Shown: positions 31,837-49,289 of the stretch, piece by piece
Layout: every line of letters begins with the position of its first letter
Numbering within the stretch: position 1 is the stretch's first letter
Assembly (NCBI RefSeq): GCF_900155475.1
Contig: NZ_FXAM01000003.1
Coordinates: 124,001-188,000 of the forward strand
Direction: 5' to 3'
From: Methylomagnum ishizawai
GTDB taxonomy: Bacteria; Pseudomonadota; Gammaproteobacteria; Methylococcales; Methylococcaceae
Length of the DNA stretch: 64,000 nt
Notes under the pieces: generated by a model
Told to the model about the DNA's origin: nothing
Databases searched by the model: none
What the model saw: only the letters and a program-made list of their open reading frames with translations
Position numbers and translations under genes: made by a program

Positions 31837-34800
31837 ATGAGCAGGACGTCATCGAAACCGCGGGGCGGGCGCTCCGGCCTGACCTGGGCGATGGCTTGGG
31901 GATTGGCCGCGCTGATTTCCTATAGCCACGCCACCGGCCAAGCCCCGTCCATCCCGGACGCCTCGGGCTTGAACCAAGCCCTGGCCGCGCGTCACGACCT
32001 CACCCTCACCGCCGCCAGCCCCGACGGGCGTTGGCTCGCCAGCGTCAGGCCGGATGGCTGGGTCGAGCTACACGATCTCGCCACCGACCAGACCCCGGCG
32101 ACCCTGCTGGGACGGGCCGGTGCCCGCGTCACCGGCCTGGCCTACAGCCCCGACGGCGCGACCCTGGCCGGCGGCCTGGACGATGGCCATATCCTGCTGT
32201 GGGACCCGGCCACGGGACAGGAGCGGCGGGTGTTGCCGGCGGGGCAGGGCGGCACCATCGAACTCTTGAGCTTCAGCCCCGGCGGCCGCCTCATCGCCAG
32301 CAGCGCCCAGGACCATCTCATCAAGTTGTGGAACACCCCCACCGGTACCTTGAACCACGTCCTGTCCGGCCACGCGGGCGCGGCCCTCTCGACCCTGGCC
32401 TTCGAGGCCGACGGCCATACCCTGGTCAGCAGCGGCGGCAATCAGATCAAGCGCTGGGACGCGGTGTCCGGGCAAGAAATCGCCGTGGCTTCCGGTCTCG
32501 CGGCCCTGCCCGGCAATGTCGATACCCGCCCCGGCGGTGGGGTGGCGGGCATCGCCCAGAACGGTCAGATCGGCCTGTGGCAATTCGACGGCGGCGGACT
32601 CCAGCCCCGGCCCGGACTCTTGCCGGAACAGGAGGGGGTGGAGCAACACGCCGTGGCCTTCAGTGCCGACGGTGCCCATGTGGCCGGAATCGGCGCGGAC
32701 AACCGGGTGCGGATTTGGGATAGCGCCAACGGCGCCTTGCGGCAAACGCTGGCGGCGGGGGCGGGCGTGCATTTCACGGCGGCGGCTTTCGATCCAGGCG
32801 GCGGCGTATTGGCCCTGGGGGCGGACAACCAGACCCTCACCTTGTGGGATATCGGCACCGGAGCCTTGGTCGCGGCCCCGATCCCGACCGGCGACACCCT
32901 CGCCACCCTGGCCTATACCGCGGGCGGAGCGGAGTTGATCGGCCAGGGCCAATCCGGGCGGATCGCGGTATGGAGCCTGCCCAATGGCGCACCGCGCTAT
33001 GCCGCCCAGGGCGCGGCCCCGGTCGCGGGCGGTGCCTGGAACATGGCCGCGGCCAGCACGGCCAATCCGGTCGGCCCGGCCCCGTCCAACGCCGCCGCAA
33101 CGGCCCGCGCCGCCACCCAAACAGCCCCGGCGGCGGGCATCCCAGCCCTGGCGAACCCAAACCGGAAGCCTGGCAAATTCTCGAAGAAAGCCCAGTGGAA
33201 AGGCATCACGGCCCTGACGATCAACCGGGACGGCAGCCTGTTGGGCGCGACCGGCCGGGGCGGCACCCTGCGCATCCTCGGCAGCGATGGCAAGCGGCGC
33301 TGGACCTTGCGCGGCCACCACGGCCAGAACGTCACCGGAGCCGCCTTCCTGCCGGATGGCAAGCGCGTGGTCAGCATCGGCCGCGACAGCGAAGCCACGA
33401 TCTGGGACACCACCAGTGGCCGGACCACGGCGGTGCTGCGGGGCGCGGAGCAAGCCCCCAGGGCGGTGGCGACCGCCCCGGACGGCCATATCGCCGTGGC
33501 CGGCGAGGACACCCGCATCCTGTACTACAACGGCCAGGGCAAGCTGGAACGCATCCTCAAGGGCCACCGCGATTTCGTGAACAGCCTCGCCTTCAGCCCG
33601 GATGGCCGCATCCTCGCCAGCGGTTCCGCCGACACCGCCCTGATCCTGTGGTCGGCGGACACCGGGCAAGCCCTGCGGACCCTGCCTTGCGGGGCCGAGA
33701 TCAACGCCCTGGCATTCAGCCCGGACGGGAAACAGGTGGCGGTGGGCACCGCCGACGGCCTGGTCGGCCTATGGGAAACCGGCGGGCGCTTGGTGCGGGT
33801 TTTCTCCGGGCATAGCGCCGCCGTCAGGAGCGTGGCTTTCAGCCGCAACGGCCAGCGCTTGGCCAGCGGGGGCGAGGATGCCAAGGTGGCGATCTGGTCC
33901 CTGCCCGACGGCAAGCTCCGCAAAGTCCTGGCCGAAACCAGCCCGGTCAACGGCTTAGCCTTCGGCCAGGGCCGGCACCTGTTCACCGGCGGCGAGGACG
34001 ACCGGCTCGACGATTGGGATACCGATAGCGGCGGCAAGTTCAAGACCTCCCAGGCCGAACCGCGGGCCGCGCTGATCTGGCTGGGCCGGGTGTTGGACTG
34101 GTTGGTGCCACCCGCCGAGGCGGCGATTCCCGCAGCGCCCGGCGGTCCACTCCTCATCATCACCCCGGACCCGCCCGCCAACCCCGCCCGCGTCAGCCCC
34201 GATTTCAGCGCCTATTACACCGAAATCCTCCGCGCCGAAGGACTCAACGAATTCGCCGTCAGCCCGATGGGGTCGGTCAACGCCGCCCTGCTCGCGGCCT
34301 ACGACGTGGCGATCCTCGGCCCCATGGCCCTGACCGCCGCCCAGGCCACGCTGCTCGATACCTGGGTCAACGACGGCGGCAACCTCATCGCCATGCGCCC
34401 GGACCCGCTGTTGGCGGGCCTGCTGGGCATCACCCCGGCCGGGACCGGCCTCGCCGACGGCTATCTCCTGGTGAACTACGGCCAGTTGCCCGGCAACGGC
34501 ATCGGCAACGACGGCCAACCCATGCAGTTCCACGGCACCGCCGATCCCTACACCCCCACCGCCGGGACCGGCACCGTCGGCGTCGCCCGGCTCTATAGCG
34601 ATTTCTCCACCCCGACCGCCTATTCCGCCATCACCCTGCGCGGCGGCATCGGCGCGGGCGGCGGTTTGGCCGCGGCCTTCGGCTACGATCTCGCCACCGC
34701 CATCGTCTACAGCCGCCAGGGCAATCCGGCCTGGGCCGTCCAGGAGCGCGACGGGTTATCGCCGATCCGTTCGGACGACAAGTTCTACGGCAACGCCAGT

Positions 34801-37800
34801 TTCGATTTCCAAGCGGACTGGGTCGATCTGCTGCGCGAGGTGGCTGTGCCCCAGGCCGACGAACAGCAACGCCTGTTGGTCAACCTCATCCTCGCCATGA
34901 ACCAGGCCAAGAAACCGCTGCCGCGCTTCTGGTACCTGCCCTTCGGCAAGAAGGCGGCGGTGGTGATGACCGGCGACGACCACGCCAACGGCGGCACCGC
35001 CGGGCGTTTCGACCAATTCATCTCGTTGAGCCCCCAAGGCTGCAACCTCGACAATTGGGAGTGCGTCCGGGGCACGTCCTATCTCTATCCCGATTCGCCC
35101 TTGACCGGTGCCCAGGCCAGCGCCTACGCCGCCCAGGGCTTCGAGGTCGGGCTCCATGTCAACACCAATTGCGCCGATTTCACCCCCGCCACGCTGGAAG
35201 CCTTCTACGTCCAGCAACTCGCCGCGTTCCAAACCCGCTATCCGGGGATCGTCCCGCTCACCCAGCGCCATCATTGCATCGCCTGGAGCGATTGGACCAC
35301 CGGGGCCACGGTCCAGGTCAACCACGGCATCCGCCTCGATACCAGCTATTACTTCTGGCCGCCGATGTGGGTGCAGGACCGTCCGGGCTTCTTCACCGCC
35401 TCGGCCACGCCCATGCGCTTCGCCGCCCCGAACGGCGGCCTGATCGACAACTACCTGGCGGTCAGCCAGATGACCGACGAATCGGGCCAGACCTATCCCT
35501 TCACCATCAACACCCTGCTGGACCGGGCCATCGGTCCCGAGGAAGACTATGGCGCCTACACCCTCAACGCCCATACCGACACGGCGATAGAAACCGAATC
35601 CACCACCGCCGTGGCCTCGGCCCAAACCCGCGGCATCCCCGTGGTGACTTCCGCCCAGATGCTGGGCTGGCTGGACGGCAAGAACGGCGCGGCCTTCACC
35701 GCCCCGAGTTGGAACGCCACCAGCGGGCAGTTGACCTTCGGCGTCGCCCTGCCCGGACTCGACGCCCAGGGCAAACAACCGGCCAACGGCCTGCAAGCCA
35801 TGCTCCCGCTCCATTTCGCCGGCCAGACCTTGGCCGGGCTCACCAAGGCGGGGGCGGCGGTGGCCTATTCGGTCAGGCCAGTCCATGGCGTGGAATACGC
35901 CCTATTCACGGTGGCGACCGGCGCGACCCGGCCCACCGATTTCAACACCTATGTCGCCCGTTACACGGCGGACACCACACCGCCCCAGACGGGCCAGTTG
36001 TCCCCCGCGGCCGGCGGCACCGCCAAGCAAACCGCCGTGGTCAGCGTGGCTTTCAATGAAGCCATGGACCCGGCCAGCATCAACGCCAGCAGTTTCCGGC
36101 TGCGCGACGGCAACGGGGCGGCGGTGGCGGCGCGGCCCCGCTATTCGGCCTATACCCGCACGGCCAGCCTGACGCCGACCGCGCCCTTGGTGGCCGCGAC
36201 CAATTACACCGCCACCCTCAGCGGCACCGGCACCACGCCCGCCACCGACCTGGCGGGCAATCCGCTCGGAGCCGACCGGGTTTGGTCCTTCACCACCGAA
36301 ACCGCCCCTTGCGCCGCCCAGCCGTGCAGCCTGTGGGACGCCACCACCCGGCCCGGCATCGCCTCGATCAACGATCCGAACCCGGTGGAACTGGGCGTGC
36401 AATTCAAATCCGACGCCAACGGCTGGATCACCGGGCTCCGCTTCTACAAGGGCGCGGGCAATACCGGCACCCATATCGGCAGCCTGTGGAGCGGCGGCGG
36501 CCAACTCCTAGCGCGGGCCAATTTCGCCAACGAAACCGCCAGCGGCTGGCAACAAGTCGATTTCGCCAACCCGGTGGCGGTCACGGCGGGCACGACCTAT
36601 GTCGCCTCCTATCACGCGCCCAACGGCTTCTACGCGGGCGACAACAATTTCTTCACCGCCAGCGGGGTGGACAATCCGCCCCTGCACGCCCCGACCAACG
36701 CGGCGGTCCAGCCCGGCAACGGGGTCTATGCCTATGGCACCACCCCGGTCTTTCCGAGCGACAGCTACCAGGCCACCAATTATTGGGTGGACGTGGTGTT
36801 CTCCAACCCGGTGCCCGGCCCGCCCACCATCACCACCACGAACCTGGGCCCGGCGACGGTGGGCCTCGCCTACACCGCCAGCTTGGTGGCCAGCGGCGGC
36901 TTGCCCCCCTATGCCTGGTCGATCAGCGCCGGAGCCCTGCCCACCGGGATCACCCTCGACTCCGCCACCGGCAAGTTGACCGGCCTCCCGACCATGGTGG
37001 GCACGGCCAGCTTCACGGTGCGGGTGGTCGATGCCACCGGCACCGTGGCCAACCGGGCCTTCAGCCTGATGGCGCAACCCGGCCCTCTCAACATCCTCAC
37101 CGGCAGCCTGCCCGACGCCACCGTGGGCGCGGCCTATGCGGCGACCCTGACCGCCGCCGGAGGCAGTCCGCCCTATACCTGGTCCCTGGCCACCGGGAGC
37201 GGCCTGCCCGCCGGGCTGAGCCTGGATAGCGGCAGTGGCGTCATCGGCGGCGTGCCCGGCACCGCCGGAACCTATAGCTTCACGGTGCGGGTGACCGCCG
37301 CCGAAAGCAGCGCGACCCGGACCCTGGGCATCAAGGTGGGGGCCACGCCGTCGAGTTTCTCGATCTGGCCCGCCACGGCGGTACCGGGGCGGGTGGATTC
37401 GGGACCGGATCGCCCGGTCGAACTGGGGGTGAAATTCAAATCCGATGTGGCGGGCGCGATCAGCGGCATCCGTTTCTACAAGGCCGCCGCCAACACCGGC
37501 CCCCATGTCGCCCATCTCTGGAATGGCGGCAATGGCAACCGGCTGGCGACGGCCAGCTTCGCCCATGAAACCGCCTCGGGCTGGCAACAGGCGGATTTCG
37601 CCACGCCGGTCGCCATCGCCGCCAACACGGTCTATGTGGCGTCCTACCACACCGGCACGGGCCATTACAGCGAAGACATCAACTACTTCCAGGCCGGCGG
37701 CGTGGACGCGCCTCCGCTCCATGCCTTGCGGAACGGTGCCTCGGGCCCGGATGGGGTGTTCGTATACGGCAACGGCGGGGTGTTCCCGAACCGGGCGGCC

Positions 37801-37866
37801 ACTTCGACCAATTACTGGGTGGATGTGGTGTTCACCCGGACGCTGGCCAGCAAGCAGGGCCGGTGA
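31837..37866 (+). CDS. Giant secreted WD40 / deacetylase-like / Ig / DUF4082 multidomain protein
   Basis: This 2009-aa protein starts with a signal peptide (about residues 15-36). Visible modules, in order, are as follows. WD40 repeats make a first propeller (about 54-390) and, after an Ala/Pro linker (390-450), a second (about 452-735). A GAT-like alpha/beta domain (about 770-990) contains GPLLIITPDPP and YDVAILGPM. A NodB/deacetylase-like domain follows (about 1040-1285), with VVMTGDDHANGG, FEVGLHVNT and QRHHCIAWSDW. Next come a Big_5-like Ig domain (1378-1488), a DUF4082-like domain (1496-1656), two He_PIG-like Ig domains (1662-1838) and a second DUF4082-like domain (1841-2001). There is no sortase or PEP-CTERM tail. 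It may modify or anchor the extracellular glycan; that role is inferred from position. Confidence 0.85.
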   Translation: MSRTSSKPRGGRSGLTWAMAWGLAALISYSHATGQAPSIPDASGLNQALAARHDLTLTAASPDGRWLASVRPDGWVELHDLATDQTPATLLGRAGARVTGLAYSPDGATLAGGLDDGHILLWDPATGQERRVLPAGQGGTIELLSFSPGGRLIASSAQDHLIKLWNTPTGTLNHVLSGHAGAALSTLAFEADGHTLVSSGGNQIKRWDAVSGQEIAVASGLAALPGNVDTRPGGGVAGIAQNGQIGLWQFDGGGLQPRPGLLPEQEGVEQHAVAFSADGAHVAGIGADNRVRIWDSANGALRQTLAAGAGVHFTAAAFDPGGGVLALGADNQTLTLWDIGTGALVAAPIPTGDTLATLAYTAGGAELIGQGQSGRIAVWSLPNGAPRYAAQGAAPVAGGAWNMAAASTANPVGPAPSNAAATARAATQTAPAAGIPALANPNRKPGKFSKKAQWKGITALTINRDGSLLGATGRGGTLRILGSDGKRRWTLRGHHGQNVTGAAFLPDGKRVVSIGRDSEATIWDTTSGRTTAVLRGAEQAPRAVATAPDGHIAVAGEDTRILYYNGQGKLERILKGHRDFVNSLAFSPDGRILASGSADTALILWSADTGQALRTLPCGAEINALAFSPDGKQVAVGTADGLVGLWETGGRLVRVFSGHSAAVRSVAFSRNGQRLASGGEDAKVAIWSLPDGKLRKVLAETSPVNGLAFGQGRHLFTGGEDDRLDDWDTDSGGKFKTSQAEPRAALIWLGRVLDWLVPPAEAAIPAAPGGPLLIITPDPPANPARVSPDFSAYYTEILRAEGLNEFAVSPMGSVNAALLAAYDVAILGPMALTAAQATLLDTWVNDGGNLIAMRPDPLLAGLLGITPAGTGLADGYLLVNYGQLPGNGIGNDGQPMQFHGTADPYTPTAGTGTVGVARLYSDFSTPTAYSAITLRGGIGAGGGLAAAFGYDLATAIVYSRQGNPAWAVQERDGLSPIRSDDKFYGNASFDFQADWVDLLREVAVPQADEQQRLLVNLILAMNQAKKPLPRFWYLPFGKKAAVVMTGDDHANGGTAGRFDQFISLSPQGCNLDNWECVRGTSYLYPDSPLTGAQASAYAAQGFEVGLHVNTNCADFTPATLEAFYVQQLAAFQTRYPGIVPLTQRHHCIAWSDWTTGATVQVNHGIRLDTSYYFWPPMWVQDRPGFFTASATPMRFAAPNGGLIDNYLAVSQMTDESGQTYPFTINTLLDRAIGPEEDYGAYTLNAHTDTAIETESTTAVASAQTRGIPVVTSAQMLGWLDGKNGAAFTAPSWNATSGQLTFGVALPGLDAQGKQPANGLQAMLPLHFAGQTLAGLTKAGAAVAYSVRPVHGVEYALFTVATGATRPTDFNTYVARYTADTTPPQTGQLSPAAGGTAKQTAVVSVAFNEAMDPASINASSFRLRDGNGAAVAARPRYSAYTRTASLTPTAPLVAATNYTATLSGTGTTPATDLAGNPLGADRVWSFTTETAPCAAQPCSLWDATTRPGIASINDPNPVELGVQFKSDANGWITGLRFYKGAGNTGTHIGSLWSGGGQLLARANFANETASGWQQVDFANPVAVTAGTTYVASYHAPNGFYAGDNNFFTASGVDNPPLHAPTNAAVQPGNGVYAYGTTPVFPSDSYQATNYWVDVVFSNPVPGPPTITTTNLGPATVGLAYTASLVASGGLPPYAWSISAGALPTGITLDSATGKLTGLPTMVGTASFTVRVVDATGTVANRAFSLMAQPGPLNILTGSLPDATVGAAYAATLTAAGGSPPYTWSLATGSGLPAGLSLDSGSGVIGGVPGTAGTYSFTVRVTAAESSATRTLGIKVGATPSSFSIWPATAVPGRVDSGPDRPVELGVKFKSDVAGAISGIRFYKAAANTGPHVAHLWNGGNGNRLATASFAHETASGWQQADFATPVAIAANTVYVASYHTGTGHYSEDINYFQAGGVDAPPLHALRNGASGPDGVFVYGNGGVFPNRAATSTNYWVDVVFTRTLASKQGR

Positions 37867-37978: not shown

Positions 37979-40900
37979 ATGATGGAAAGATCGAACACCA
38001 GGGGGGAAGGCCGGCTGCCGGGCCGGGCCGGAGCCGTGCGGCTTGGGCTGTTGTGCTATGCCCTGGCCGGGCCGGGGAGCGGAGCCTGGGCGGCCTGTAC
38101 CGGCAATCCCGTCGCCGTGGAGAATTGCCTGTCCGGCGCTTCGGGCTGGGATATCGACGGGGCGGGCGACGATTCGATCCAGGGTTTCGCCGACAATATC
38201 AGCGTGAACCTGGGCGGGACGGTCAATTTCAAGGTCAAGACCGCCGCCCGCGCCTACCGCCTGGATATCTACCGCATGGGGTATTACCAAGGGAACGGGG
38301 CGCGGCGGGTCGCGACGTTGCGGCCTCCGGCCGGCCGCCTTCCGCAAACCCAGCCCCCCTGCCTCACCGAGGTCGGCACCGGGCTGTACGATTGCGGCAA
38401 CTGGGCGGTTTCCGCCACCTGGACCGTGCCCGCCAGCGCCGTTTCCGGCATTTATTTCGCCAAGCTGGTCAGCGAGGACGCGACCACGCCCGGTGCCAGC
38501 CATATCTTCTTCATCGTGCGCGACGACGCCCGCCACGCCGATATCCTGTTCCAGGCTTCCGACACCACCTGGCAAGCCTATAACGACAGCATCAACGGCC
38601 AGAACCTCTACACCGACACCCGTTGCGGGCAATGGGTCGCCTCTTGCCGCGCCTACAAGGTGAGCTATAACCGGCCTTTCCATACCCGCGTGTTCGAATC
38701 CAACGATTGGGTATTCAACGCCGAATACCCGATGGTGCGCTGGCTGGAGGCCAACGGCTACGACGTGGCCTATTCCACCGACACCGACACCGACCGCAAC
38801 GGCGGCCTGATCCTGAACCACAAGGTTTGGATGTCCAACGGCCACGACGAATATTGGTCCGCCGGGCAGAAAACCAACGTCGAAGCCGCCCGCGACGCCG
38901 GGGTCCATCTGGCGTTCTTCAGCGGCAATACCTTGTTCTGGAAAACCCGCTGGGAGAACAGCCTCGACGCCAGCGGCACGCCCTACCGCACCCTGGTCTG
39001 CTACAAGGAAACCTATGGCGACATCACCGATCCCAAGGATTCCCCGGCCGGCGGTTTCGTCTGGACCGGCACCTGGCGCGACCCCAGTTCCAGCCCGCCC
39101 GCCGACGGGGGCGAACCGGAGAACGAGGTCAAGGGCAATATCTTCCGCCTCAACGCCGGCAACTACGCCATCAGCGTGCCCGCCGCCGAGGGCAAGCTGC
39201 GGTTCTGGCGCGGCACCCATGTCGCGACCCAGACCAGCGGCGCGATGGCCCTGGCCCCCGGCAGCCTGGGGGCCGAGATCGATGTGCCCGAAGACAACGG
39301 CGTCCAGCCGCCGGGCCTGGTCCGGCTGTCCGCCAACCCCATCACCGACGGTTCCAACTTCCTGCTCGATTACGGCGTGACCTACGGTGGCGGCACCACC
39401 ACCCACGCCATGACCTTGTACCGCGCCCCCAGCGGCGCCCTGGTGTTTTCCAGCGGCACCTACCAGTGGTCCTGGGGCTTGGACAACCACCACGACAATA
39501 CCGCCCTGGGTGCCACCACCCATGCCGCGATGCAGCAAGCCACGGTGAACCTGTTGGCGGACATGGGGGCGCAACCGGCCAACCTACAGGCGGGACTCGC
39601 GGCAGCCACCGCCTCGACCGACCATACCGCGCCCAGTTCGGCCATCACCGCCCCGGCCAACGGGACGAACGTCGCCAGTGGCGGCACCGTCACCATTTCC
39701 GGCACGGCGACCGACAGCGGCGGCGGCGTGGTGGGCGGGGTCGAGGTTTCGACCGATGGCGGCGCGACTTGGCATCCCGCCAGCGGGCGCGGTAGCTGGA
39801 GCTACGCCTGGACCGCCACCGGCAGTGGCGCCCACAGCCTCCGCAGCCGCGCCGTGGACGACAGCGGCAACCTGGAAACCCCCGCGGCGGGCGTCGGCGT
39901 AACCGTGGGCGGTGGCGGCGGCACACCGACCTGTCCCTGTACGATCTGGCCCGGCACCGCCGTGCCCGGCGTCGCCGCCGATAGCGATGCCGCCGCCGTC
40001 GAACTCGGCGTGAAATTCACGGCGGACGTGGATGGCGTTATCACCGGCATCCGCTTCTATAAAGGCACGGGCAACACCGGCACCCATGTTGGCAAGCTGT
40101 GGAGCGGCGGCGGCACTTTGTTGGCCTCCGCCACCTTCGGTGCGGAAACCGCCTCCGGTTGGCAACAAGCCAACTTCGTCACGCCGGTGGCGATCACGGC
40201 GGGTATGACCTATGTCGCCGCCTATTTCGCGCCCAACGGCCATTACGCCGCCGACGCAGGCTATTTCGCCAGTTCCGGTCGCGACAACAACCCCTTGCAC
40301 GCTTTGAGCGGCACGACCGCGGGCGGCAACGGCGTATACACCTATGGCGCGGCCGGGGGCTTCCCCAGCAGCAGCTACGCCTCGACCAATTATTGGGTGG
40401 ACGTGGTGTTCACGCCCGGCCCAGCGCCGTTATCCATCGGCACCGCCAGCCTGCCCAATGGCACCACCGGGACGGCCTATTCGGCCACGTTGACGGCCAG
40501 CGGCGGCACCGCGCCCTATACCTGGTCTCTTGCCGGTGGCGCGTTGCCGCCCGGCCTCGCGCTCTCCGGCGGCGGCGCGATCTCCGGCACGCCCACCACG
40601 GCGGGCGGCTACGGCTTCACGGTGAAGGCCACCGACAGCCGTTCCTTAAGCGCGAGTCAACCCCTCAGTATCACCGTCGCCGCCCCGGCGGCGAACACCA
40701 GCTTGTTCGGGGCGGCGGTGCCGGGCGTGGCCGATGACGGCCCCGACAGCGCCGTGGAATTGGGCGTGCGCTTCAAATCCGATAGCGCGGGCCGGATCAC
40801 CGGCCTCCGCTTCTACAAAGCCGCCACCAATACCGGCACCCATACCGCCCACCTCTGGTCTGGCAGTGGCGCCTTGCTGGCTTCGGCCACCTTCAGCGGA

Positions 40901-41176
40901 GAAACCGCCTCCGGCTGGCAGACGGTGAATTTCGCCGCCCCCGTGGCCATTGCGGCCAATACGGTTTATGTGGCCTCCTACCATACCAATACCGGCCACT
41001 ATAGCGCCGACCAGGGTTATTTCGCCAACCAGGGCCAGGATAGTCCGCCCCTGCACGCGCCCGCGAGTACGATATCCGCAGGCAATGGCGTCTACGCCTA
41101 TACCACGACCCGCAAATTCCCCAACCTCACCTGGAATAATACCAACTATTGGGTGGACATCATTTTCATCCCTTGA
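37979..41176 (+). CDS. Secreted N,N-dimethylformamidase-like protein with Ig and DUF4082 modules
   Basis: This 1065-aa protein has a signal peptide cleaved near AWA-A (about residue 38). Residues about 40-540 resemble the large (beta) subunit domain of N,N-dimethylformamidase: AYRLDIYRMGYYQGNGARRV, then VFNAEYPMVRWLEANGYDV, SNGHDEYWSAGQ, FFSGNTLFWKTRWE and YQWSWGLDN. An Ig-like domain (about 548-650) follows. Then come a DUF4082-like domain (654-811), a He_PIG-like domain (815-901) and a second DUF4082-like domain (906-1065). The DUF4082 and He_PIG modules closely resemble those of the preceding giant gene, 112 bases upstream. The start has AGAGGAA five bases before the ATG. Amidase activity is unproven; a glycan or matrix role is inferred. 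Confidence 0.83.
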   Translation: MMERSNTRGEGRLPGRAGAVRLGLLCYALAGPGSGAWAACTGNPVAVENCLSGASGWDIDGAGDDSIQGFADNISVNLGGTVNFKVKTAARAYRLDIYRMGYYQGNGARRVATLRPPAGRLPQTQPPCLTEVGTGLYDCGNWAVSATWTVPASAVSGIYFAKLVSEDATTPGASHIFFIVRDDARHADILFQASDTTWQAYNDSINGQNLYTDTRCGQWVASCRAYKVSYNRPFHTRVFESNDWVFNAEYPMVRWLEANGYDVAYSTDTDTDRNGGLILNHKVWMSNGHDEYWSAGQKTNVEAARDAGVHLAFFSGNTLFWKTRWENSLDASGTPYRTLVCYKETYGDITDPKDSPAGGFVWTGTWRDPSSSPPADGGEPENEVKGNIFRLNAGNYAISVPAAEGKLRFWRGTHVATQTSGAMALAPGSLGAEIDVPEDNGVQPPGLVRLSANPITDGSNFLLDYGVTYGGGTTTHAMTLYRAPSGALVFSSGTYQWSWGLDNHHDNTALGATTHAAMQQATVNLLADMGAQPANLQAGLAAATASTDHTAPSSAITAPANGTNVASGGTVTISGTATDSGGGVVGGVEVSTDGGATWHPASGRGSWSYAWTATGSGAHSLRSRAVDDSGNLETPAAGVGVTVGGGGGTPTCPCTIWPGTAVPGVAADSDAAAVELGVKFTADVDGVITGIRFYKGTGNTGTHVGKLWSGGGTLLASATFGAETASGWQQANFVTPVAITAGMTYVAAYFAPNGHYAADAGYFASSGRDNNPLHALSGTTAGGNGVYTYGAAGGFPSSSYASTNYWVDVVFTPGPAPLSIGTASLPNGTTGTAYSATLTASGGTAPYTWSLAGGALPPGLALSGGGAISGTPTTAGGYGFTVKATDSRSLSASQPLSITVAAPAANTSLFGAAVPGVADDGPDSAVELGVRFKSDSAGRITGLRFYKAATNTGTHTAHLWSGSGALLASATFSGETASGWQTVNFAAPVAIAANTVYVASYHTNTGHYSADQGYFANQGQDSPPLHAPASTISAGNGVYAYTTTRKFPNLTWNNTNYWVDIIFIP

Positions 41177-41199
41177 ATAATAACCCCTGGATAAAAACC

Positions 41200-41739
41200 A
41201 TGATAAGTGATAACGTTAAACTAGAAATCGGCGTCAGCATACCCCAACCAGACCTCGTCAATCTCTACGGTTGCGAAATCGGCAAGAATACCAAGATCGG
41301 CACTTTCGTAGAAATCCAGAAAGGGGCCAGCATCGGTGCTTATTGCAAGATATCCAGCCATAGTTTCATCTGCGAGGGCGTGGCTATCGAGGATGGGGTT
41401 TTCATCGGCCATGGCGTGATGTTCATCAATGATGTCTACCCCAAAGCGGTGAACGAGCATGGGGAGTTATTGACCGAGGCCGAATGGCAAGTCGTCCCCA
41501 CCCGGATCAAAACCCGGGTTTCGATAGGCAGCAACGCCACGATACTTTGCGGCATCACCATCGGCGAAGGCGCATTGATCGGGGCCGGGGCGGTAGTGAC
41601 CCGCGATGTGCCGCCTTATAAGATCGTGGCCGGGGTGCCCGCCGAAATCATCGGAGATGTGCGGGAAAAAAACCGTATGGGGATCGGCAAGGATAGTATT
41701 AAATCAGGGGGGTTCCGTATCAGCGACCGGCAGCCTTAA
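41200..41739 (+). CDS. Left-handed beta-helix acyltransferase (WbpD/WlbB-like)
   Basis: This 179-aa hexapeptide-repeat protein would transfer an acetyl group to an amino sugar nucleotide. Repeats such as IGKNTKIGTFVEIQKGASIGAYCKI and VSIGSNATILCGITIGEGALIGAGAVV form the helix. The VFIGHGVMFINDVYP loop carries the conserved His/Asn of WbpD-like N-acetyltransferases. The position before a Gfo/Idh dehydrogenase and a DegT aminotransferase fits making a 3-acetamido sugar. The start lies 24 bases after the preceding stop, with no strong ribosome site. Confidence 0.85.
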   Translation: MISDNVKLEIGVSIPQPDLVNLYGCEIGKNTKIGTFVEIQKGASIGAYCKISSHSFICEGVAIEDGVFIGHGVMFINDVYPKAVNEHGELLTEAEWQVVPTRIKTRVSIGSNATILCGITIGEGALIGAGAVVTRDVPPYKIVAGVPAEIIGDVREKNRMGIGKDSIKSGGFRISDRQP

Positions 41740-41753
41740 ACCTATTCAACCAA

Positions 41754-41788
41754 GCTAGGGTGGGCATGGAATAACTGCCAACCCTAGC
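41754..41788. repeat. Intergenic hairpin, TAGGGTGGGC family
   Basis: GCTAGGGTGGGCA and TGCCAACCCTAGC form 13-bp arms with one mismatch around a 9-base loop. The arm sequence resembles the hairpins at 22052 and 50717. It lies between the acetyltransferase and dehydrogenase genes and may be a small dispersed repeat rather than a terminator, since no T run follows on either strand. Confidence 0.5.
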
Positions 41789-41821
41789 AATCACTGACGA
41801 TGGCAAACGCATCGTTCGAAA

Positions 41822-41841
41822 GCGCTGAGCAGGTTCAGCGC
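41822..41841. repeat. Second intergenic hairpin next to the TAGGGTGGGC element
   Basis: GCGCTGA, loop GCAGGT and TCAGCGC form a perfect 7-bp stem, followed by ATCCTACC. It lies 33 bases after the 41754 hairpin. Both could belong to one compound palindromic element of about 100 bp. Confidence 0.4.
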
Positions 41842-41902
41842 ATCCTACCGGGATATCCTTTTCTGGAAATTGCCTAACCATCACAAAGGAGCTGTGATAA
41901 AG

Positions 41903-42931
41903 ATGAGCATCAAGATAGGCATTATCGGCTATGGCTATTGGGGACCGAACCTGGTCCGCAACTTCTCGGAAACCCCGGAATTCAAAGTCACCTGGATCAG
42001 CGATATCAATCCCAAACGGCTGGCCCTGGCCGCAGCCCGTTATCCCGCCATCAAAACTAGCGCCGACGGCCAAACCCTGTTCGACGATCCTAATCTCGAC
42101 GCCGTGGCGATAGCGACCCCGGTATCCGCCCATTTCGAGCTGGCTTTGCGGGCTTTGCGGGCTGGAAAACATGTCTTCATCGAAAAACCCCTTACCGAAA
42201 CCGTGGAACAGGCCGAGCGCCTGATCGAGGAAGCCCGGAAACGCAACCTGATTCTACAAGTAGACCATACCTTCATCTATACCGGGGCGGTGCGGAAAAT
42301 CCGCGATTTGGTGCGCGAGGGGGTATTGGGCGATCTTTATTATTATGATTCGGTACGGATCAACCTCGGCCTGTTCCAGCCCGATATTAGCGTGCTATGG
42401 GATTTAGCGGTGCATGATTTGTCGATCATGGATTATGTGTTCCCGGCGGCCCCGGTCGCGGTCTCGGCCACCGGCATCAACCATGTCGAGGGCCAGCCGG
42501 CCAATATCGCTTTCCTGACCGTGTTTTTCGAAAACAGCGCCATCGCCCATTTGCATGTGAATTGGCTGGCCCCGGTGAAAATGCGGCGGACCTTGATCGG
42601 CGGCAGCCGCCGGATGGTGGTGTACGACGATTTGGAGCCCAGCGAGAAAATCAAGGTTTACGATAAAGGAATCACCCTGAACGGTACCAATGGCAATAAG
42701 GAGAATATCTATCAAGCCCTGATCGATTACCGCTCCGGCGATATGTGGGCGCCCCGGCTGGAAATCGCCGAAGCCCTGCGGGTGGAGGCGCAAGGCTTCG
42801 GACACTCGATCAACCAGGGCGAAGCCTCGCCCAGCGACGGGGCAGCGGGCCTGAGGGTGGTCCGCATCCTCGAAGCCGCCACCCGTTCGCTGCGCGAGCG
42901 CGGCAATCCCGTCGAACTGGCCCGGAGCTAA
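41903..42931 (+). CDS. Gfo/Idh/MocA-family sugar-nucleotide dehydrogenase
   Basis: This 342-aa NAD(P)-dependent oxidoreductase opens with the Rossmann motif IKIGIIGYGYWGPNLVRNF. It has the family EKPLTETVEQAE motif near residue 97 and the later LWDLAVHDLSIMDYV segment with the catalytic Asp/His region. In sugar-nucleotide pathways such enzymes (for example WlbA/WbpB) oxidise the C3 hydroxyl so that the next enzyme can aminate it. The adjacent DegT aminotransferase, four bases downstream, supports that reading. AAGGAG lies 11 bases before the ATG. Substrate not determined. Confidence 0.88.
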   Translation: MSIKIGIIGYGYWGPNLVRNFSETPEFKVTWISDINPKRLALAAARYPAIKTSADGQTLFDDPNLDAVAIATPVSAHFELALRALRAGKHVFIEKPLTETVEQAERLIEEARKRNLILQVDHTFIYTGAVRKIRDLVREGVLGDLYYYDSVRINLGLFQPDISVLWDLAVHDLSIMDYVFPAAPVAVSATGINHVEGQPANIAFLTVFFENSAIAHLHVNWLAPVKMRRTLIGGSRRMVVYDDLEPSEKIKVYDKGITLNGTNGNKENIYQALIDYRSGDMWAPRLEIAEALRVEAQGFGHSINQGEASPSDGAAGLRVVRILEAATRSLRERGNPVELARS

Positions 42932-42935
42932 GCCC

Positions 42936-44039
42936 ATGATTCCCTTCCTCGACCTGAAAACCCAATACCACAGCATCCAAAACGACATCCAAGCCGCCGT
43001 GCTGGCGACCCTGGATAGCGCCCAATACACCCTGGGCCGGGACGTGGCCTGCTTCGAGGAGGAATTCGCCGCCTATTGCGGGGCGACCTTCGGCGTGGCA
43101 GTGAATTCCGGGACCAGCGCCCTGCACCTGGCCTTGTTGGCGGCGGGGGTCGGCCCTGGCGACGAGGTCGTCACCGTGGCTTGCACCTTCGTCGCCACCG
43201 TCGCCGCCATCGAATACGCGGGCGCGACCCCGGTGTTCGTGGACGTGGACCCCCTCACCCAGAACATGGACCCCCAACGGATCGAAGCCGTCCTCACCGA
43301 TAGCACCAAGGCCATCCTCCCGGTGCATCTCCATGGCCAACCCGCCGATATGGACCCGATCCTGGCCATCGCCCGCCGCCGGGGCCTGGTGGTGATCGAG
43401 GACGCGGCCCAGGCCCACGGGGCCGAGTACAAGGGTCGCCGGGTCGGTGCCCTCGGCGACCTGGGTTGCTTCAGCTTCTATCCCGGCAAGAACCTGGGCG
43501 CTTATGGCGAGGCCGGGATGGTGGTCACCGACAACGAGGACTACGCCCAAACCCTGAGGATGCTGCGCGACTGGGGCCAGGAGCACAAATACCGCCATGT
43601 CATCAAGGGGTTCAATTACCGGATGGAGGGTCTCCAGGGCGCGGTGCTGCGGGTGAAACTGCGCCATCTGGACGATTGGACGGCGGCGCGGCGGCAATGG
43701 GCGGCGCTGTACGGCCAATGGCTGGGCGATTGCCCGGTCGAAACCCCGGCGCTCACGCCCTGGGGCCGCTCGGTCCACCACGTCTACGCCATCCGCAGCC
43801 CCAGGCGCGATAAGCTGCTGAAAGCCCTGCAACAGCGCGAAATACAGACCGGCATCCATTACCCGGTGCCGGTGCATCTGCAACCGGCTTATTCCAATCT
43901 CGGCTATCAAGCCGGGGACTTGCCGACGACCGAGCGCATCGCCCAGGAAACCCTGTCCCTGCCGATGTTCCCGGAACTGGGGACGGCGCGGGTCGAGGCG
44001 GTGGCGGCGGCGGTGTGGGAGGCCCTGGCCCATGGCTAG
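42936..44039 (+). CDS. DegT/DnrJ/EryC1-family sugar aminotransferase
   Basis: This 367-aa PLP enzyme would aminate a keto-sugar nucleotide. The N-terminus IPFLDLKTQY, the NSGTSALHLAL pocket, DVDPLTQNMDP, EDAAQAHGAEY and the PLP lysine Lys185 in SFYPGKNLGAYGEAGMV are all present. KYRHVIKGFNYRMEGLQGAVL and GIHYPVPVHLQPAY complete the family pattern. It resembles WbpE/WlbC and FdtB-type enzymes. It is four bases after the dehydrogenase and its stop overlaps the next acyltransferase start by eight bases, so the three are coupled. Confidence 0.92.
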   Translation: MIPFLDLKTQYHSIQNDIQAAVLATLDSAQYTLGRDVACFEEEFAAYCGATFGVAVNSGTSALHLALLAAGVGPGDEVVTVACTFVATVAAIEYAGATPVFVDVDPLTQNMDPQRIEAVLTDSTKAILPVHLHGQPADMDPILAIARRRGLVVIEDAAQAHGAEYKGRRVGALGDLGCFSFYPGKNLGAYGEAGMVVTDNEDYAQTLRMLRDWGQEHKYRHVIKGFNYRMEGLQGAVLRVKLRHLDDWTAARRQWAALYGQWLGDCPVETPALTPWGRSVHHVYAIRSPRRDKLLKALQQREIQTGIHYPVPVHLQPAYSNLGYQAGDLPTTERIAQETLSLPMFPELGTARVEAVAAAVWEALAHG

Positions 44040-44739
44040 CGGCACCGCCCGGATCATCAAAGCCGTGCATGGCCTGAGGGAAAACCTACCCGATCCCGCC
44101 TATGTCGCGGCCTTGGCCGAAGATTTGCGGGCCGGTCATAGCCGCGAAGCCTTGTTGGAACTCTATGGCCGCTTCGCCTACGGCTACGGCGGTTTCGATG
44201 TATTGATGCGGCGGGTGTTCTGGCGGGCGCTGGCCCTGGATTGCGGCGACAACCTGCGGGTGGAACCGGGCGTGGGTTTCAAGCACATCGAAACCTTCGA
44301 GATCGGCGAGGGCGTGTTCATCGGTGCCCAAGCCTATCTGCAAGGCCGCTGCGATGGCCGTTGCCGGATCGGCGACCAAGTGTGGATCGGCCCGCAAAGC
44401 TATTTCGACGCCCGCGACCTCGTGCTGGAAGACCATGTGGGCTGGGGACCGGGCGCGAAGGTGCTGGGTTCGGCCCATACCGGCCTGCCGTTGGACATCC
44501 CGGTGATCCAGACCGACTTGGAAATCAAGCCGGTGCGGGTGGAAGCCTGGGCCGATATCGGCACCAATGCCTGTTTGCTGCCCGGCGTCACGGTCGGGCA
44601 GGGGGCCATCGTCGGGGCCGGCGCGGTGGTGAAGCGCGACGTACCACCCTTCGCCAAGGTGGCGGGCGTCCCGGCCAGGGTTATCGGCTGGCGCGACGGA
44701 GAAAACGGCGGAAACCCCATGGACAATCCGGCGGAATAA
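44032..44739 (+). CDS. Hexapeptide-repeat acyltransferase of the amino-sugar set
   Basis: This 235-aa protein has a helical N-terminal cap (about 70 residues). A left-handed beta-helix follows with FEIGEGVFIGAQAYLQGRC, CRIGDQVWIGPQSYFDA, WADIGTNACLLPGVTVGQGAIVGAGAVVKRDVPPFAKVAGVPARV. The loop KVLGSAHTGLPLDIPVIQTDLEIKP carries a likely catalytic His. It overlaps the aminotransferase gene by eight bases and probably acetylates the amine that enzyme makes. A second acyltransferase (41200) encoded three genes earlier could do the same, so the division of labour is open. Confidence 0.85.
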   Translation: MASGTARIIKAVHGLRENLPDPAYVAALAEDLRAGHSREALLELYGRFAYGYGGFDVLMRRVFWRALALDCGDNLRVEPGVGFKHIETFEIGEGVFIGAQAYLQGRCDGRCRIGDQVWIGPQSYFDARDLVLEDHVGWGPGAKVLGSAHTGLPLDIPVIQTDLEIKPVRVEAWADIGTNACLLPGVTVGQGAIVGAGAVVKRDVPPFAKVAGVPARVIGWRDGENGGNPMDNPAE

Positions 44740-44872
44740 CCCACACCGCCACTCCACCGGCCCCCAAGCCCCGCTTGTCGAGAGGCGAAAGCCCTTTTCC
44801 AAGCCAAGCTTGGGATATAACGCACAACGCAGTTTGAAGCTGCGGCATCGAGTTTAATTTGAAGGTTTCAAA

Positions 44873-45496: not shown

Positions 45497-45530
45497 TTCT
45501 TCTGGGAACGCCTATCAAGGAGCATAAATT

Positions 45531-46493
45531 ATGAAATTACAAGATAAAAAAATCCTGGTCACGGGTGGGGCAGGCTTCGTCGGTTCGCATATCATCGACC
45601 TGTTGAGCCGGGAGGGCTGCGCCCAAATCGTGGCGGTAGACAATATGGTCCGTGGCCGCCCGGAAAACCTGGCCACCGCTTTGACCCAAAACACGGTGCG
45701 ATTGGTGGAAGGGGATATCCGCGACCGGGGCTTGATGGAAGAATTAGTCAGCGATAGCGATATTATCTTCCACCAAGCCGCTCTCAGGATCACCCAATGC
45801 GCGGAGGAACCCAGGGCGGCGCTGGAAACCATGGTGGATGCCACTTATGAGCTTTTGGAAATGTGTGTCCGCCATCGCGTGCAAAAAGTCGTCGCGGCCT
45901 CCTCGGCCTCGATTTATGGTATGGCCGACGAGTTTCCCACCACCGAATCCCATCATCCCTATCATAATCGCACGCTATATGGTGCCGCCAAGGTTTTCAA
46001 TGAAGGTTTGCTCCGAAGTTTCCACGAAATGTACGGCCTGGATTATATCGCCCTACGCTATTTCAATGTCTACGGACCACGCATGGATATTTATGGAGTG
46101 TATACCGAAGTATTGATCCGCTGGATGGAACGCTTGGCGGCGGGCGAACCGCTGCTGATTTTTGGCGATGGCTCGCAAACCATGGATTTCGTCTATATCA
46201 CCGACGTGGCCCGCGCCAATGTATTGGCCGCCGCGAGCGATGCCAGCGACGAGGTATGCAATGTGGCGAGCGGTATTGAAACCAGTTTGGCCGAATTGGC
46301 GGCGGCCTTGACGCGGGTTATGGGTTCGACGGTACCCACCGAATGTTTACCGGAACGCAAGGTGAATCCGGTGCGGCGGCGCTTGGCCGATATTCAAAAG
46401 GCGCAAGCGGTTTTGGGATTCGAGGCACAAATCCGCCTGGAACAGGGTTTGGCCGAATTGGTGGAATGGTGGCGGGCGCAGCGGGCTTTTTAA
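45531..46493 (+). CDS. NAD-dependent sugar-nucleotide epimerase/dehydratase
   Basis: This 320-aa extended short-chain dehydrogenase has the glycine motif LVTGGAGFVGSHIIDLL at the N-terminus and the Ser/Tyr/Lys catalytic set (AASSASIYG, then YGAAK). The sugar-binding region RYFNVYGPRMD is followed by DFVYITDVARANVLA. It resembles GalE/RfbB/WbpP-like proteins, but the exact substrate cannot be read from sequence alone. ATAAGGAGCATAAATT-like spacing gives a good ribosome site. It follows the acyltransferase by 34 bases. Confidence 0.9.
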   Translation: MKLQDKKILVTGGAGFVGSHIIDLLSREGCAQIVAVDNMVRGRPENLATALTQNTVRLVEGDIRDRGLMEELVSDSDIIFHQAALRITQCAEEPRAALETMVDATYELLEMCVRHRVQKVVAASSASIYGMADEFPTTESHHPYHNRTLYGAAKVFNEGLLRSFHEMYGLDYIALRYFNVYGPRMDIYGVYTEVLIRWMERLAAGEPLLIFGDGSQTMDFVYITDVARANVLAAASDASDEVCNVASGIETSLAELAAALTRVMGSTVPTECLPERKVNPVRRRLADIQKAQAVLGFEAQIRLEQGLAELVEWWRAQRAF

Positions 46494-46568
46494 AATCCCG
46501 CCACGGCGGCGCTTGATCGAAAGGCTAATGATTGGGGCCGATGGAAAATTGGTATTCCCAGCTCCCAC

Positions 46569-46656
46569 TAGAGCATTTTCGGTTTGGATGTATGTTCAGC
46601 CATCCCGCTGGGTACCGAATACGCACCCACCTTACAAATAACGTGAAAATGCGCTA
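46569..46656. mobile_element. MITE-like element, diverged copy
   Basis: TAGAGCATTTTC at one end and GAAAATGCGCTA at the other form imperfect terminal inverted repeats around an 88-bp element. The termini match those of the element at 50697-50778. The interior has no gene and only weak internal pairing. It sits in the gap before the flavin-reductase-like gene. Confidence 0.5.
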
Positions 46657-46672
46657 GAAACCGAGGATCGTG

Positions 46673-48070
46673 ATGAATGCTTTAAAGGATTATCGATATA
46701 TCTGGCCCCAGCCCGAATCCCTCAACACCGATCAATGGCGAAAACTCCAAGACGACGACGCTTATATCCGTACCATGCCGGAAGCTTTGGAGGAATTATC
46801 CGAGGATAGCCGGTGGCCTGCTTTCTTCCCATCGCCCATCGCCTTGGTCACTACAGCGGATGGCCCGGTAGCCGGATTGGAAAAAGTCGTGGGCGCATCC
46901 ATCGTCAACCGTTTCCCTTATGTGATCGCCCTGAGTTTCTGTAAGCAAAGCTTATCAGACCGCCATTATGCCCGCAGCGTATTCACGGAAATACTGGAAT
47001 CTGGAAAAGGCGTCGCCGTGCAATTCTTAGCTCCTGGCCGGGCCTTGGACGCCACCATGCGAGCGATAGCCACGGTTCCAGACCTGGAAACAGATACCAG
47101 GATTAAAGCGACCGGGAACCCCACGCGTAAAGCCCTTACCAACAATGCACCGGTATTCAAAGAGGCTTATTTGGTCTATGAAGCCGTCTTGGTGAAGCCC
47201 GGCAAGGATTTCGATCAGCAACCCATTTATCCAGAACCCTGGGTCGATGTCGGCAGTCACCGGGTTTATTTCCTGGAAATCACCGCGATCCAATTACGGC
47301 AAGATATCGCCGATGGCAGGAATAAAATCATATGGCGCAGCCTCCCGGATTGGAACCATCCCGTTGAGAAACAAGGTTTCAATGGCGGCGGAGCCGACAT
47401 AGGAAGAGATCGCTACCGCAAAGGCTATACCCCACATTATACCTTCCCTTCCGCTGGAACCATTGCCTTCGAGGCCGATTTGGTCAAGGACGGCATGGCG
47501 GTTAAATACCTGCCACCCTTGCCCGAGGATCAAATCGAGGTGGATAACGATCGGGCGCGTTGGCCCTGTTTTTTCCCTTCCTCAGCGGGCATGATTACTT
47601 CATGGATGGAAAATGGTACCCCGAATATCATGCCTTGCGGTTCCACCACCATTATTAGCCGCCATCCCTTGGTGGTCGCGCCCTGTATCTCTTATGCCAA
47701 GATCAATGAGCGCTACGCCCCTAGGGCCAGTTTGGACATTATCAGGATCGGCGGTAAATTCGGTTGCGGCGTGCCCTTCATCAACCCGGTTGTCACCAAC
47801 GCTATCAGGTATACCGGTAATATCTCAATCACGAACGATCCCCATAAAGCGGAGCGTAGCGGCCTTAGGATCGGGAAAAGCCCGTGGGCTCCCGTATTAT
47901 ACGATTTACCCATACATTACGATTGCAAAGTCATCGGGGAAATCAAACTCGGTACCCATATTATGCTTTTGGGCGAGGTCCAGCGGATTAGGGTACATTC
48001 CGGCTTGACGCCGGAAAATCCTTTGGAATGGTTCCCATGGGCTGATGTCAGCATGGAACCCTCTGATTAA
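46673..48070 (+). CDS. Tandem flavin-reductase-like (split-barrel) protein
   Basis: This 465-aa protein contains two copies of a split-barrel flavin-reductase-like domain. The repeat is visible as RWPAFFPSPIALVTTADG at residue 47 and RWPCFFPSSAGMITSW at residue 296. Each copy is followed by a segment such as ASIVNRFPYVIALSFCK or GSTTIISRHPLVVAPCISYAK. Typical family members are single domains of 150-200 aa. No signal peptide or transmembrane helix is seen. GAGGA precedes the ATG at 46673; a GTG lies one codon earlier. It sits between the epimerase and a DegT aminotransferase, suggesting a redox step in an unusual sugar, which is inference. Confidence 0.6.
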   Translation: MNALKDYRYIWPQPESLNTDQWRKLQDDDAYIRTMPEALEELSEDSRWPAFFPSPIALVTTADGPVAGLEKVVGASIVNRFPYVIALSFCKQSLSDRHYARSVFTEILESGKGVAVQFLAPGRALDATMRAIATVPDLETDTRIKATGNPTRKALTNNAPVFKEAYLVYEAVLVKPGKDFDQQPIYPEPWVDVGSHRVYFLEITAIQLRQDIADGRNKIIWRSLPDWNHPVEKQGFNGGGADIGRDRYRKGYTPHYTFPSAGTIAFEADLVKDGMAVKYLPPLPEDQIEVDNDRARWPCFFPSSAGMITSWMENGTPNIMPCGSTTIISRHPLVVAPCISYAKINERYAPRASLDIIRIGGKFGCGVPFINPVVTNAIRYTGNISITNDPHKAERSGLRIGKSPWAPVLYDLPIHYDCKVIGEIKLGTHIMLLGEVQRIRVHSGLTPENPLEWFPWADVSMEPSD

Positions 48071-48095
48071 TCCTTGTAATCCATCGATCAATCCC

Positions 48096-49289
48096 ATGAT
48101 AAATATTCCATTCGCAAAACCCTCTATAGGCGAAGGTGAAATCGCCGCAGTCATCGAAGTCTTAAAATCCGGCTGGGTCAGCCAAGGTCCGAAGGTCGCG
48201 GAATTCGAGCGTGCTTTTGCTGGATATGTCGGGGCGGAACATGCCTGTGCCGTATCCAATTGCACCGCAGCTTTGCACCTAGCTTTGCTAGCGTTGGGCG
48301 TAGGCGTGGACGACGAGGTTATTACCGTCAGTCATTCCTTTATCGCCACGGCCAACGCCATCCGTTATTGCAGTGCCAAACCCATTTTTGTGGATATAGA
48401 CCCCGAGACCTATAACCTAGATGCGGCACGACTGGAATCGGCGATTTCCAACCGGACCAAGGCCATACTCTGTGTACATCAATTGGGTATGCCCTGCGAC
48501 CTGCCGAGGATCGTCAAAATCGCGGCCCGTTATGGTCTACGGGTAGTCGAGGATGCCGCCTGCGGTATCGGCAGCGAAATCCGCATCAATGGTCGCTGGG
48601 ATAAAATCGGCCAGCCCCATGGAGATATCGCTTGCTTTTCATTCCATCCGCGCAAGGTCATTACCACTGGTGAGGGTGGTATGTTGACCACCCGAGACCC
48701 AGAGTTGGATAATAATTTACGTAGGCTTAGGCAGCATTATATGAGCGTGCCGGATACCGCCCGCCATCAATCCACCCAGGTGATTTTCGAGGATTATCAA
48801 AAACTCGGCTTTAATTATCGCATGACCGATATCCAAGCTGCCATTGGCTTGGAACAATTGAAGCGTCTGCCGGACTTGGTGGGGCGCCGCCGTGAATTGG
48901 CCTCGCGCTACCGCGCCCTGCTTTCGGATATTCCAGGGGTAATACCGCCCATGGAACCCGAATGGGCACGCAGTACTTGGCAAAGTTATTCGGTCCGGTT
49001 GCCGGAAGGAAAGGACCAGCGCCGGGTCATGCAATATATGCTGGATATGGGGGTTTCCACCCGCCGTGGTGTCATGTGCGCCCACCGTGAATCCGCCCAT
49101 CCACCCGGTACCTGGACCTGTGGCACGGCGTATCGGGGTCATATATGCGGACCGGGTCGCTGTCCTTCATTGTGGCACAGCGAGGCTGCCCAGGATCATA
49201 CTATTATCTTACCATTATTTCCTCTACTAACCTTCGAGCAACAAAATCAAGTGGTAGCGGCTTTGGAAAGCGCCTTGGTGCATCGGTAA
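48096..49289 (+). CDS. Second DegT/DnrJ/EryC1-family aminotransferase
   Basis: This 397-aa PLP enzyme has NCTAALHLALLALGV, DIDPETYNLDA, EDAACGIGSEI and the PLP lysine Lys187 in SFHPRKVITTGEGGM, then FNYRMTDIQAAIGLEQL. Between residues about 330 and 370 it carries a Cys/Gly-rich stretch (TWTCGTAYRGHICGPGRC) that is unusual for the family, before the common AQDHTIILPLFP end. The start at 48096 was chosen because relatives begin IPFAKPSI; an ATG 17 codons earlier lies inside the previous gene. It is distinct from the 42936 aminotransferase, so a second amino sugar is likely made. Confidence 0.9.
   Translation: MINIPFAKPSIGEGEIAAVIEVLKSGWVSQGPKVAEFERAFAGYVGAEHACAVSNCTAALHLALLALGVGVDDEVITVSHSFIATANAIRYCSAKPIFVDIDPETYNLDAARLESAISNRTKAILCVHQLGMPCDLPRIVKIAARYGLRVVEDAACGIGSEIRINGRWDKIGQPHGDIACFSFHPRKVITTGEGGMLTTRDPELDNNLRRLRQHYMSVPDTARHQSTQVIFEDYQKLGFNYRMTDIQAAIGLEQLKRLPDLVGRRRELASRYRALLSDIPGVIPPMEPEWARSTWQSYSVRLPEGKDQRRVMQYMLDMGVSTRRGVMCAHRESAHPPGTWTCGTAYRGHICGPGRCPSLWHSEAAQDHTIILPLFPLLTFEQQNQVVAALESALVHR

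Follow-up and report, generated by a model that had tools for sequence, protein, structure and literature searches.

An apparently exported dimethylformamidase-like protein with a predicted iron site goes with an amino-sugar cassette in Methylomagnum ishizawai and other bacteria

What might an enzyme of the N,N-dimethylformamidase (DMFase) type do outside the cell, among genes for a polysaccharide? The question is raised by a locus of Methylomagnum ishizawai lying in a stretch of 64,000 nucleotides (assembly GCF_900155475.1, contig NZ_FXAM01000003.1, forward-strand positions 124,001 to 188,000), which was analysed whole and is called the window, its own numbering being used for all coordinates. 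All features located below are on the plus strand. The gene at 37979..41176 (open reading frame (ORF) call and Pfam) encodes a DMFase-like protein of 1065 residues. A sequence-only reading had credited it with a DMFase-like catalytic core, a signal peptide and adhesive modules, and had paired it with the giant protein encoded upstream in a possible extracellular system acting on amide groups of a glycan. The predicted core and its iron site are borne out; the protein belongs to a clade that goes with an amino-sugar cassette, and this cassette is a more general partner of the protein than the giant.

Pfam places DMFA2_C (PF20254) on residues 95–507 with 331 bits (E 1.2e-98; curated cut-off 27). 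By alignment, model and fold match, this span (38261..39499) comprises the end of an immunoglobulin (Ig)-like domain I and a ThuA-like catalytic domain III, with no pentraxin-like insert. The published work on DMFase (PMC7686228), here and below as far as its available text goes, describes an enzyme that hydrolyses amides at a two-tyrosine-one-glutamate iron site, with Y399, Y440 and E521 as ligands plus the essential H519 and N547, and in which Y440A, E521A and H519A are inactive. We transferred these residues by aligning a DMFase-type relative (L062) to the Paracoccus structure 6LVB and then, in an alignment of 12 rows, to the window protein. In this alignment Y201 (38579..38581) and Y211 (38609..38611) correspond to the iron ligands Y399 and Y440, H289 and E291 of an H289-D290-E291 run (38843..38851) to the essential H519 and the ligand E521, and N317 (38927..38929) to N547. 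The ligand tyrosines and glutamate, on whose retention the sequence-only reading depended, are thus in place (Y201, Y211 and E291). All five residues are kept in each of the 34 DUF4082-bearing ORFs, the window's own included, among 85 ORFs matched by the core profile; the 51 others, without DUF4082, have the motif in 42 cases (two of them gapped at some of the five positions) and lack it, by the pattern used, in nine.

A model of the core built from 18 sequences reached a pLDDT (predicted local distance difference test score) of 73 and a pTM (predicted template modelling score) of 0.83, with model residues 309–352 below a pLDDT of 50. Its fold matches are 6LVB, 6LVE, 6LVD, 8HUY, 8I5A and 8I59, at Z scores of 24.9–25.8, and the next row has 9.5; the match to 6LVE_A (Z 25.8, 409 residues, 3.3 Å) covers domains I and III of DMFase. 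The window protein thus resembles the large subunit of Paracoccus DMFase (6LVB; PMC7686228) in its Ig-like domain I, its ThuA-like domain III and its site of two tyrosines, one glutamate, a histidine and an asparagine. It differs in being apparently exported, in lacking the pentraxin-like domain II, in carrying Ig and DUF4082 modules and in standing in a polysaccharide locus; identity is 18–19% in the structural alignments and 24% to three aligned DMFase-type members. In the 12-row alignment an insert of the place and size of domain II is present in L048, L054 and L062. The structures 8HUY, 8I5A and 8I59 are of N-acetyl-(R)-β-phenylalanine acylase, which has the same fold (Z 25.1–25.8) and, to go by its name, acts on an N-acetyl amide; it differs from the window protein in its chain of 772–776 residues and shares 20–21% identity with it. 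We found no paper on this acylase in the open-access literature. Alignment and model together show the window protein to have the Ig-like plus ThuA-like core of the DMFase/N-acetyl-β-phenylalanine acylase family with the complete set of iron-site residues. The protein is a member of an already known superfamily.

The N terminus is a hydrophobic stretch followed by AWA|AC and reads as a Sec signal peptide (predicted residues 1–38, 37979..38092); this and all other signal-peptide calls were made by hydropathy and by eye only, not with a signal-peptide program. An in-frame ATG is also present at 37943, ahead of the start at 37979, and AGAGGA sits 6 bases 5' of 37979. Behind the core Pfam finds a Big_7 Ig-like domain (residues 552–621, 39632..39841), a first DUF4082 (39959..40399), a He_PIG Ig-like domain (residues 822–901, 40442..40681) and a second DUF4082 (40715..41155). 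The claims of a DMFase-like core and of a signal peptide with adhesive modules both hold up on this evidence.

The genome has a single PF20254 copy, and the family occurs in 4 of 61 relatives (own genome included) and in 0 of 14 control genomes. In a tree of 75 rows, from which the sequences of the solved structures were absent and in which long branches were flagged outside the DUF4082 group, the 34 DUF4082-bearing rows and L081_2935 form one group (100/100), with the DMFase-type rows outside it. The group spans Pseudomonadota, Acidobacteriota, Actinomycetota and one metagenome-assembled genome (MAG) of Chloroflexota. The 8-kb contig of L081 (genome G093) has two successive, slightly overlapping DMFase-like ORFs on its minus strand (365–3178 and 2935–5658). 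The open-access literature, outside which most subscription papers lie, yielded no paper on DMFA2_C or DUF6605 and none that ties dimethylformamidase to polysaccharides or export; for DUF4082 it held a secretome study.

The giant ends 112 bp upstream of the DMFase-like gene, and the next gene begins after a gap of 23 bp. It is the first of six that we call the cassette: a hexapeptide-repeat acyltransferase, WbpD/WlbB-like by context only (gene 1, 41200..41739); a Gfo/Idh/MocA dehydrogenase whose best NCBIfam row is UDP-GlcNAc 3-dehydrogenase, at 153 bits against a cut-off of 450 (gene 2, 41870..42931); a DegT/DnrJ/EryC1/StrS aminotransferase (gene 3, 42936..44039); a hexapeptide-repeat acyltransferase (gene 4, 44032..44739); an extended short-chain dehydrogenase/reductase with GalE 4-epimerase as its best NCBIfam row, below its cut-off (gene 5, 45531..46493); and a DegT aminotransferase with perosamine synthetase and ArnB as best rows from the Protein Data Bank (PDB) (gene 6, 48045..49289). 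The NCBIfam scores of the cassette genes are under the equivalog cut-offs. Genes 1–3 are enzyme types of the WbpB, WbpE and WbpD steps to UDP-GlcNAc3NAcA, as given in the available text of PMC10622841; the epimerase and one further enzyme each of the aminotransferase and acyltransferase types go beyond that pathway. Judged by enzyme types, the cassette would make an N-acylated amino sugar. The other neighbours in the window are biosynthetic (flippase-like, initiating transferase, glycosyltransferase and nucleotide-sugar genes).

At least four of the six cassette genes stand in one locus in 25 of the 29 genomes, from four phyla, with a DUF4082-bearing member (24 of 28 when the genome of origin is left out). 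The 29 are the 17 genomes found by the DUF4082-bearing core (L005–L021), together with G093, G140 and G296; G000, G410, G482, G575, G592, G628, G740 and G744; and G003, with G070, which is the same as L014, counted once. Left out were G022 (its gene is cut by the contig end), loci without DUF4082, and two plasmid records picked from matches, of which L074 has all six cassette genes and L075 none within 28 kb. The cassette epimerase was found genome-wide, at 51–68% identity, in 14 of the 17 genomes among the 29 whose fetched flanks held fewer than four cassette genes, as against 0 of 29 control genomes without PF20254 at E 1e-60 (Fisher 3e-9); the controls were 15 Acidobacteriota and 14 of the window's class, with no Actinomycetota or Alphaproteobacteria among them. 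At 13 of the 14 epimerase places there are four to six cassette genes, and in the five genomes measured the core and the epimerase lie 12–37 kb apart on the same contig. Of 398 Pseudomonadota, four (the own genome among them) have cassette gene 4 at no less than 64% identity; all four have PF20254, a family present in 28 of the 398. G520 and G556 gave weak partial matches to gene 4 (38–42%) and have no PF20254. The clade goes with the cassette, and the proposal of the sequence-only reading that co-occurrence with glycan loci be examined has led to a conserved amino-sugar cassette.

These six genes also occur on plasmid pRL10 of Rhizobium leguminosarum (L074), next to DMFase-like giants, and on pSymB of Sinorhizobium meliloti (L073), next to the partner module described below, in both cases at 59–66% identity. 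Among the 17 loci found by the protein alone (L005–L021), eight have at least four cassette genes in the fetched flanks; one of 12 further DUF4082-bearing loci from the phylum samples does. For these 29 sampled loci together, many with flanks that are short or cut by contig ends, the count is 9, against 1 of 47 loci without DUF4082 (Fisher 5e-4). The one such locus without DUF4082 is L129, where all six cassette genes accompany a PF20254 protein from outside the clade, apparently an independent association; the genome concerned, G418, carries the same genus label as G482 and G628. L073 has all six with the partner module alone. We considered whether DUF4082, and not the catalytic modules, attracts the cassette, and rejected this because in L129 and L073 the cassette accompanies a gene that lacks DUF4082.

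The giant itself (31837..37866) is a 2009-residue protein with a likely signal peptide, WD40 repeats (about residues 1–760), a putatively ThuA/DUF4350-like plus deacetylase-like module, Big_5, DUF4082, two He_PIG domains and a further DUF4082 (Pfam and hydropathy; its Pfam features are among the matches listed, 25 of 47). The genome has five DUF4082 copies, four of them in the giant and the DMFase-like gene. The two-domain module (34159..35961, by profile comparison of genomes) is fused to a DMFase-like core elsewhere. In G003, from another genus of the same family, module and core share one ORF of 2443 residues, and the cassette follows at 72–80% identity; in L014, an Acidobacteriota MAG, core and module are fused in reverse order, the contig end cutting inside the module; L031, an Actinomycetota MAG, has the fusion in the order of L014 and is seen only from the end of the core onward. 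The idea that core and module occur together solely in this strain is rejected by these three genomes. The physical link between module and core is firm but rare; the two modules of the pair proposed by the sequence-only reading thus do occur together beyond this strain, and a link to the giant is supported by the fusions, whereas the strict pair of genes is seldom found. That reading as a whole is partly supported, and its idea is strengthened.

Giant residues 775–1375 match no Pfam family above cut-off. In the first part, DUF4350 is matched weakly by 10 of 11 members (E 1.2e-5 at best; the window's own row has 15.2 bits against a cut-off of 30.4) and ThuA by 4 of 11. Seven close members share an invariant TGDDH and, later in the second part, an invariant histidine, and six of the seven also have NxH; distant members retain the T, D and H of TGDDH and the later histidine. 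This arrangement is reminiscent of CE4 and Agd3. The HxxxH that, with an aspartate, makes up the metal triad of Agd3/CE18 is absent at that place, where there is a single histidine (GLHVNTNC in the window). Searching the PDB with module profiles turned up nothing convincing (lowest E 0.012 for A3 and 1.2 for A7); profile-profile comparison with the DMFase-like core gave 1.3%, and hhalign against four CE4 proteins from the same genome, with small alignments, gave a probability of 2.6% and aligned only around motif 2. An AlphaFold2 model of the module from two sequences had a pLDDT of 37. A scan of viral contigs for the module found none.

Agd3 (CE18/CBM87), as described in the available text of PMC7229062, combines a ThuA/GATase1-like carbohydrate-binding module, a catalytic domain with a distant resemblance to CE4 and, as its third domain, a β-rich one, and has homologues in putative bacterial exopolysaccharide operons. 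As an exopolysaccharide de-N-acetylase it has the role that we propose for the window protein, whose DMFase-like core differs from it in fold and metal site. What the giant's module has in common with Agd3 is a similar order of domains and no more (a weakly ThuA/GATase1-like part, a DD-containing part and a C-terminal part); it lacks the second histidine of HxxxH, and no search connected the two. The CE4 enzymes PgaB and IcaB, which remove N-acetyl groups from exported polymer (PMC7229062), are likewise alike in role and different in fold and metal site.

We lean towards an account in which the window protein acts, after export, as an iron-dependent amidohydrolase and takes N-acyl groups off the cassette sugar, accompanied in some lineages by a second, Agd3-like enzyme, and judge it probable, if modestly so. 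The exported core would bind iron, activate water and hydrolyse an amide of the amino sugar, N-acetyl being the likeliest; the DUF4082 and Ig modules may anchor the enzyme to the polymer, on which an Agd3-like module of the giant may act as a second de-N-acylase. The outcome would be a polysaccharide with free amines, such as CE4 enzymes and Agd3 yield on other exopolysaccharides. N-acetyl amides would be within the reach of the family because a solved member is named N-acetyl-(R)-β-phenylalanine acylase. An N-formyl sugar as substrate was not adopted because no formyltransferase family appeared among the 22 window ORFs scanned with Pfam (for the giant, 25 of 47 matches); one may exist elsewhere. 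It is conceivable, though we would not yet bet on it, that these proteins form a new class of exopolysaccharide de-N-acylases without kinship to CE4 or CE18, built on an iron site of two tyrosines and one glutamate, present in at least four phyla, dedicated to one cassette sugar and in some lineages paired or fused with a second, Agd3-like enzyme. If so, the fold of DMFase, an enzyme characterised against a pollutant introduced only in 1893 (PMC7686228), would gain a natural job, and biofilm and capsule polymers a new chemistry of modification; genes labelled 'DUF4082 domain-containing protein' on rhizobial plasmids would gain a candidate function, and the cassette could be a possible marker for the polysaccharide.

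Several observations weigh against this account. The N-acetyl substrate is an extension from the name of the acylase entry, and DMFase, in the available text of PMC7686228, prefers formamides and has no activity on acetamide. Its large subunit is inactive without the small one (PMC7686228), and the gaps of 112 and 23 bp beside the window gene are too small for the DMFase small alpha subunit, although no small-subunit search was made. The association with the cassette is weaker at the level of the locus, with at least four cassette genes in fetched DNA at 9 of the 29 sampled DUF4082-bearing loci; among the 29 genomes G063, G069 and G744 are without the cassette epimerase, and in G062 just two of the six genes are seen, next to the end of a contig. 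Of the four genomes with cassette gene 4, three belong to one genus, and the Fisher tests ignore shared ancestry. The partner module of the giant is no more than a putative enzyme. The module is found in only 2 of the 61 relatives (own genome and G003), in 2 of the 17 genomes found by the DUF4082-bearing core (L014 and L031) and, of the 398 Pseudomonadota, in none but the own genome, one marginal match aside; the Acidobacteriota G264, G304, G320 and G360 have a close full-length module and no PF20254. Across 297 Acidobacteriota the module is present in 10, PF20254 in 18 and both in 5 (Fisher 1e-4), a co-occurrence that says little on the window pair because of the five only G070 carries a close, fused copy; the other four (G103, G129, G345 and G369) have a distantly related module and PF20254 proteins without DUF4082.

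The same fold and export could serve to cut another amide (a uronamide, an amino-acid amide or an amide cross-link) in place of an amino-sugar N-acetyl group. The lack of acetamide activity reported for DMFase (PMC7686228, available text) speaks for this, and the cassette indicates the kind of sugar, not the bond cleaved; with two acyltransferases and two aminotransferases in the cassette, however, the distinctive bonds should be N-acyl amides, and a relative is named as an acylase of an N-acetyl amide, so that we consider this reading unlikely. It is more doubtful still that the protein is a surface glycan-binding protein recognising the cassette sugar, its core unused or acting as a lectin. 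The C-terminal half is mostly Ig and DUF4082 modules, and the ThuA-like domain of Agd3 acts as a carbohydrate-binding module (PMC7229062, available text), but the five active-site residues are intact in 34 of 34 DUF4082-bearing ORFs, and the cassette also occurs with a core without DUF4082 (L129) and with the partner module alone (L073). Slightly less probable again is a degradative enzyme that dismantles or releases the polysaccharide or recycles acyl groups of foreign glycans: export, with the WD40 repeats and adhesive modules of the giant, would suit it, whereas the neighbours are biosynthetic and no glycosidase or lyase family was found among the same 22 scanned ORFs (again with 25 of 47 matches for the giant). 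That the protein is a true dimethylformamidase or small-amide scavenger turned exported, as the Pfam name and the identity of the iron site might suggest, is very improbable given 24% identity to DMFase-type members, the missing pentraxin-like domain II, the separate tree group of 35 rows (100/100) and the association with an amino-sugar cassette.

Several smaller observations were also made. A third hexapeptide acyltransferase lies inside the cassette (44873–45496) and is not among the six conserved genes counted; between the epimerase and the last aminotransferase, 46670–48070 encodes a 466-residue protein with two flavin-reductase-like stretches and no NCBIfam row. The GC content is 0.66–0.70 over the giant and the DMFase-like gene and drops to 0.49–0.56 across most of the cassette and beyond (41000–53000), with 0.64 at 43000–45000; synteny is nonetheless conserved in other genomes. 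The fifth DUF4082 of the genome lies outside the window (G000:C3:22161-22601), within an open frame of 675 residues. Read from sequence, the WD40 repeats of the giant (some 760 residues, 31837–34116) follow its likely signal peptide and are absent from the fused form of G003. On pSymB, the polysaccharide locus L073 combines the partner module with Wzz, a tyrosine kinase and the complete cassette; the fetched stretch contains no DMFase-like core. A gene for the module is found in 27 plasmid records of Sinorhizobium.

The proteins of R. leguminosarum and its relatives (families f59 and f56, taken to be rhizobial from the tree) are mostly without an obvious signal peptide. A gene with a CobW-type motif, GFLG[A/S]GKT, stands near the DMFase-like gene at seven of nine such loci (L074, L127, L128, L130, L131, L133 and L136), one of the seven being confirmed as CobW by Pfam; it is not in L132, which is cut, nor in L140. 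The CobW-type gene may perhaps encode a metal chaperone. A C39-peptidase ATP-binding cassette (ABC) transporter is encoded near the L074 pair, and together with the CobW-type gene it is suggestive of a metal-dependent protein with another export route.

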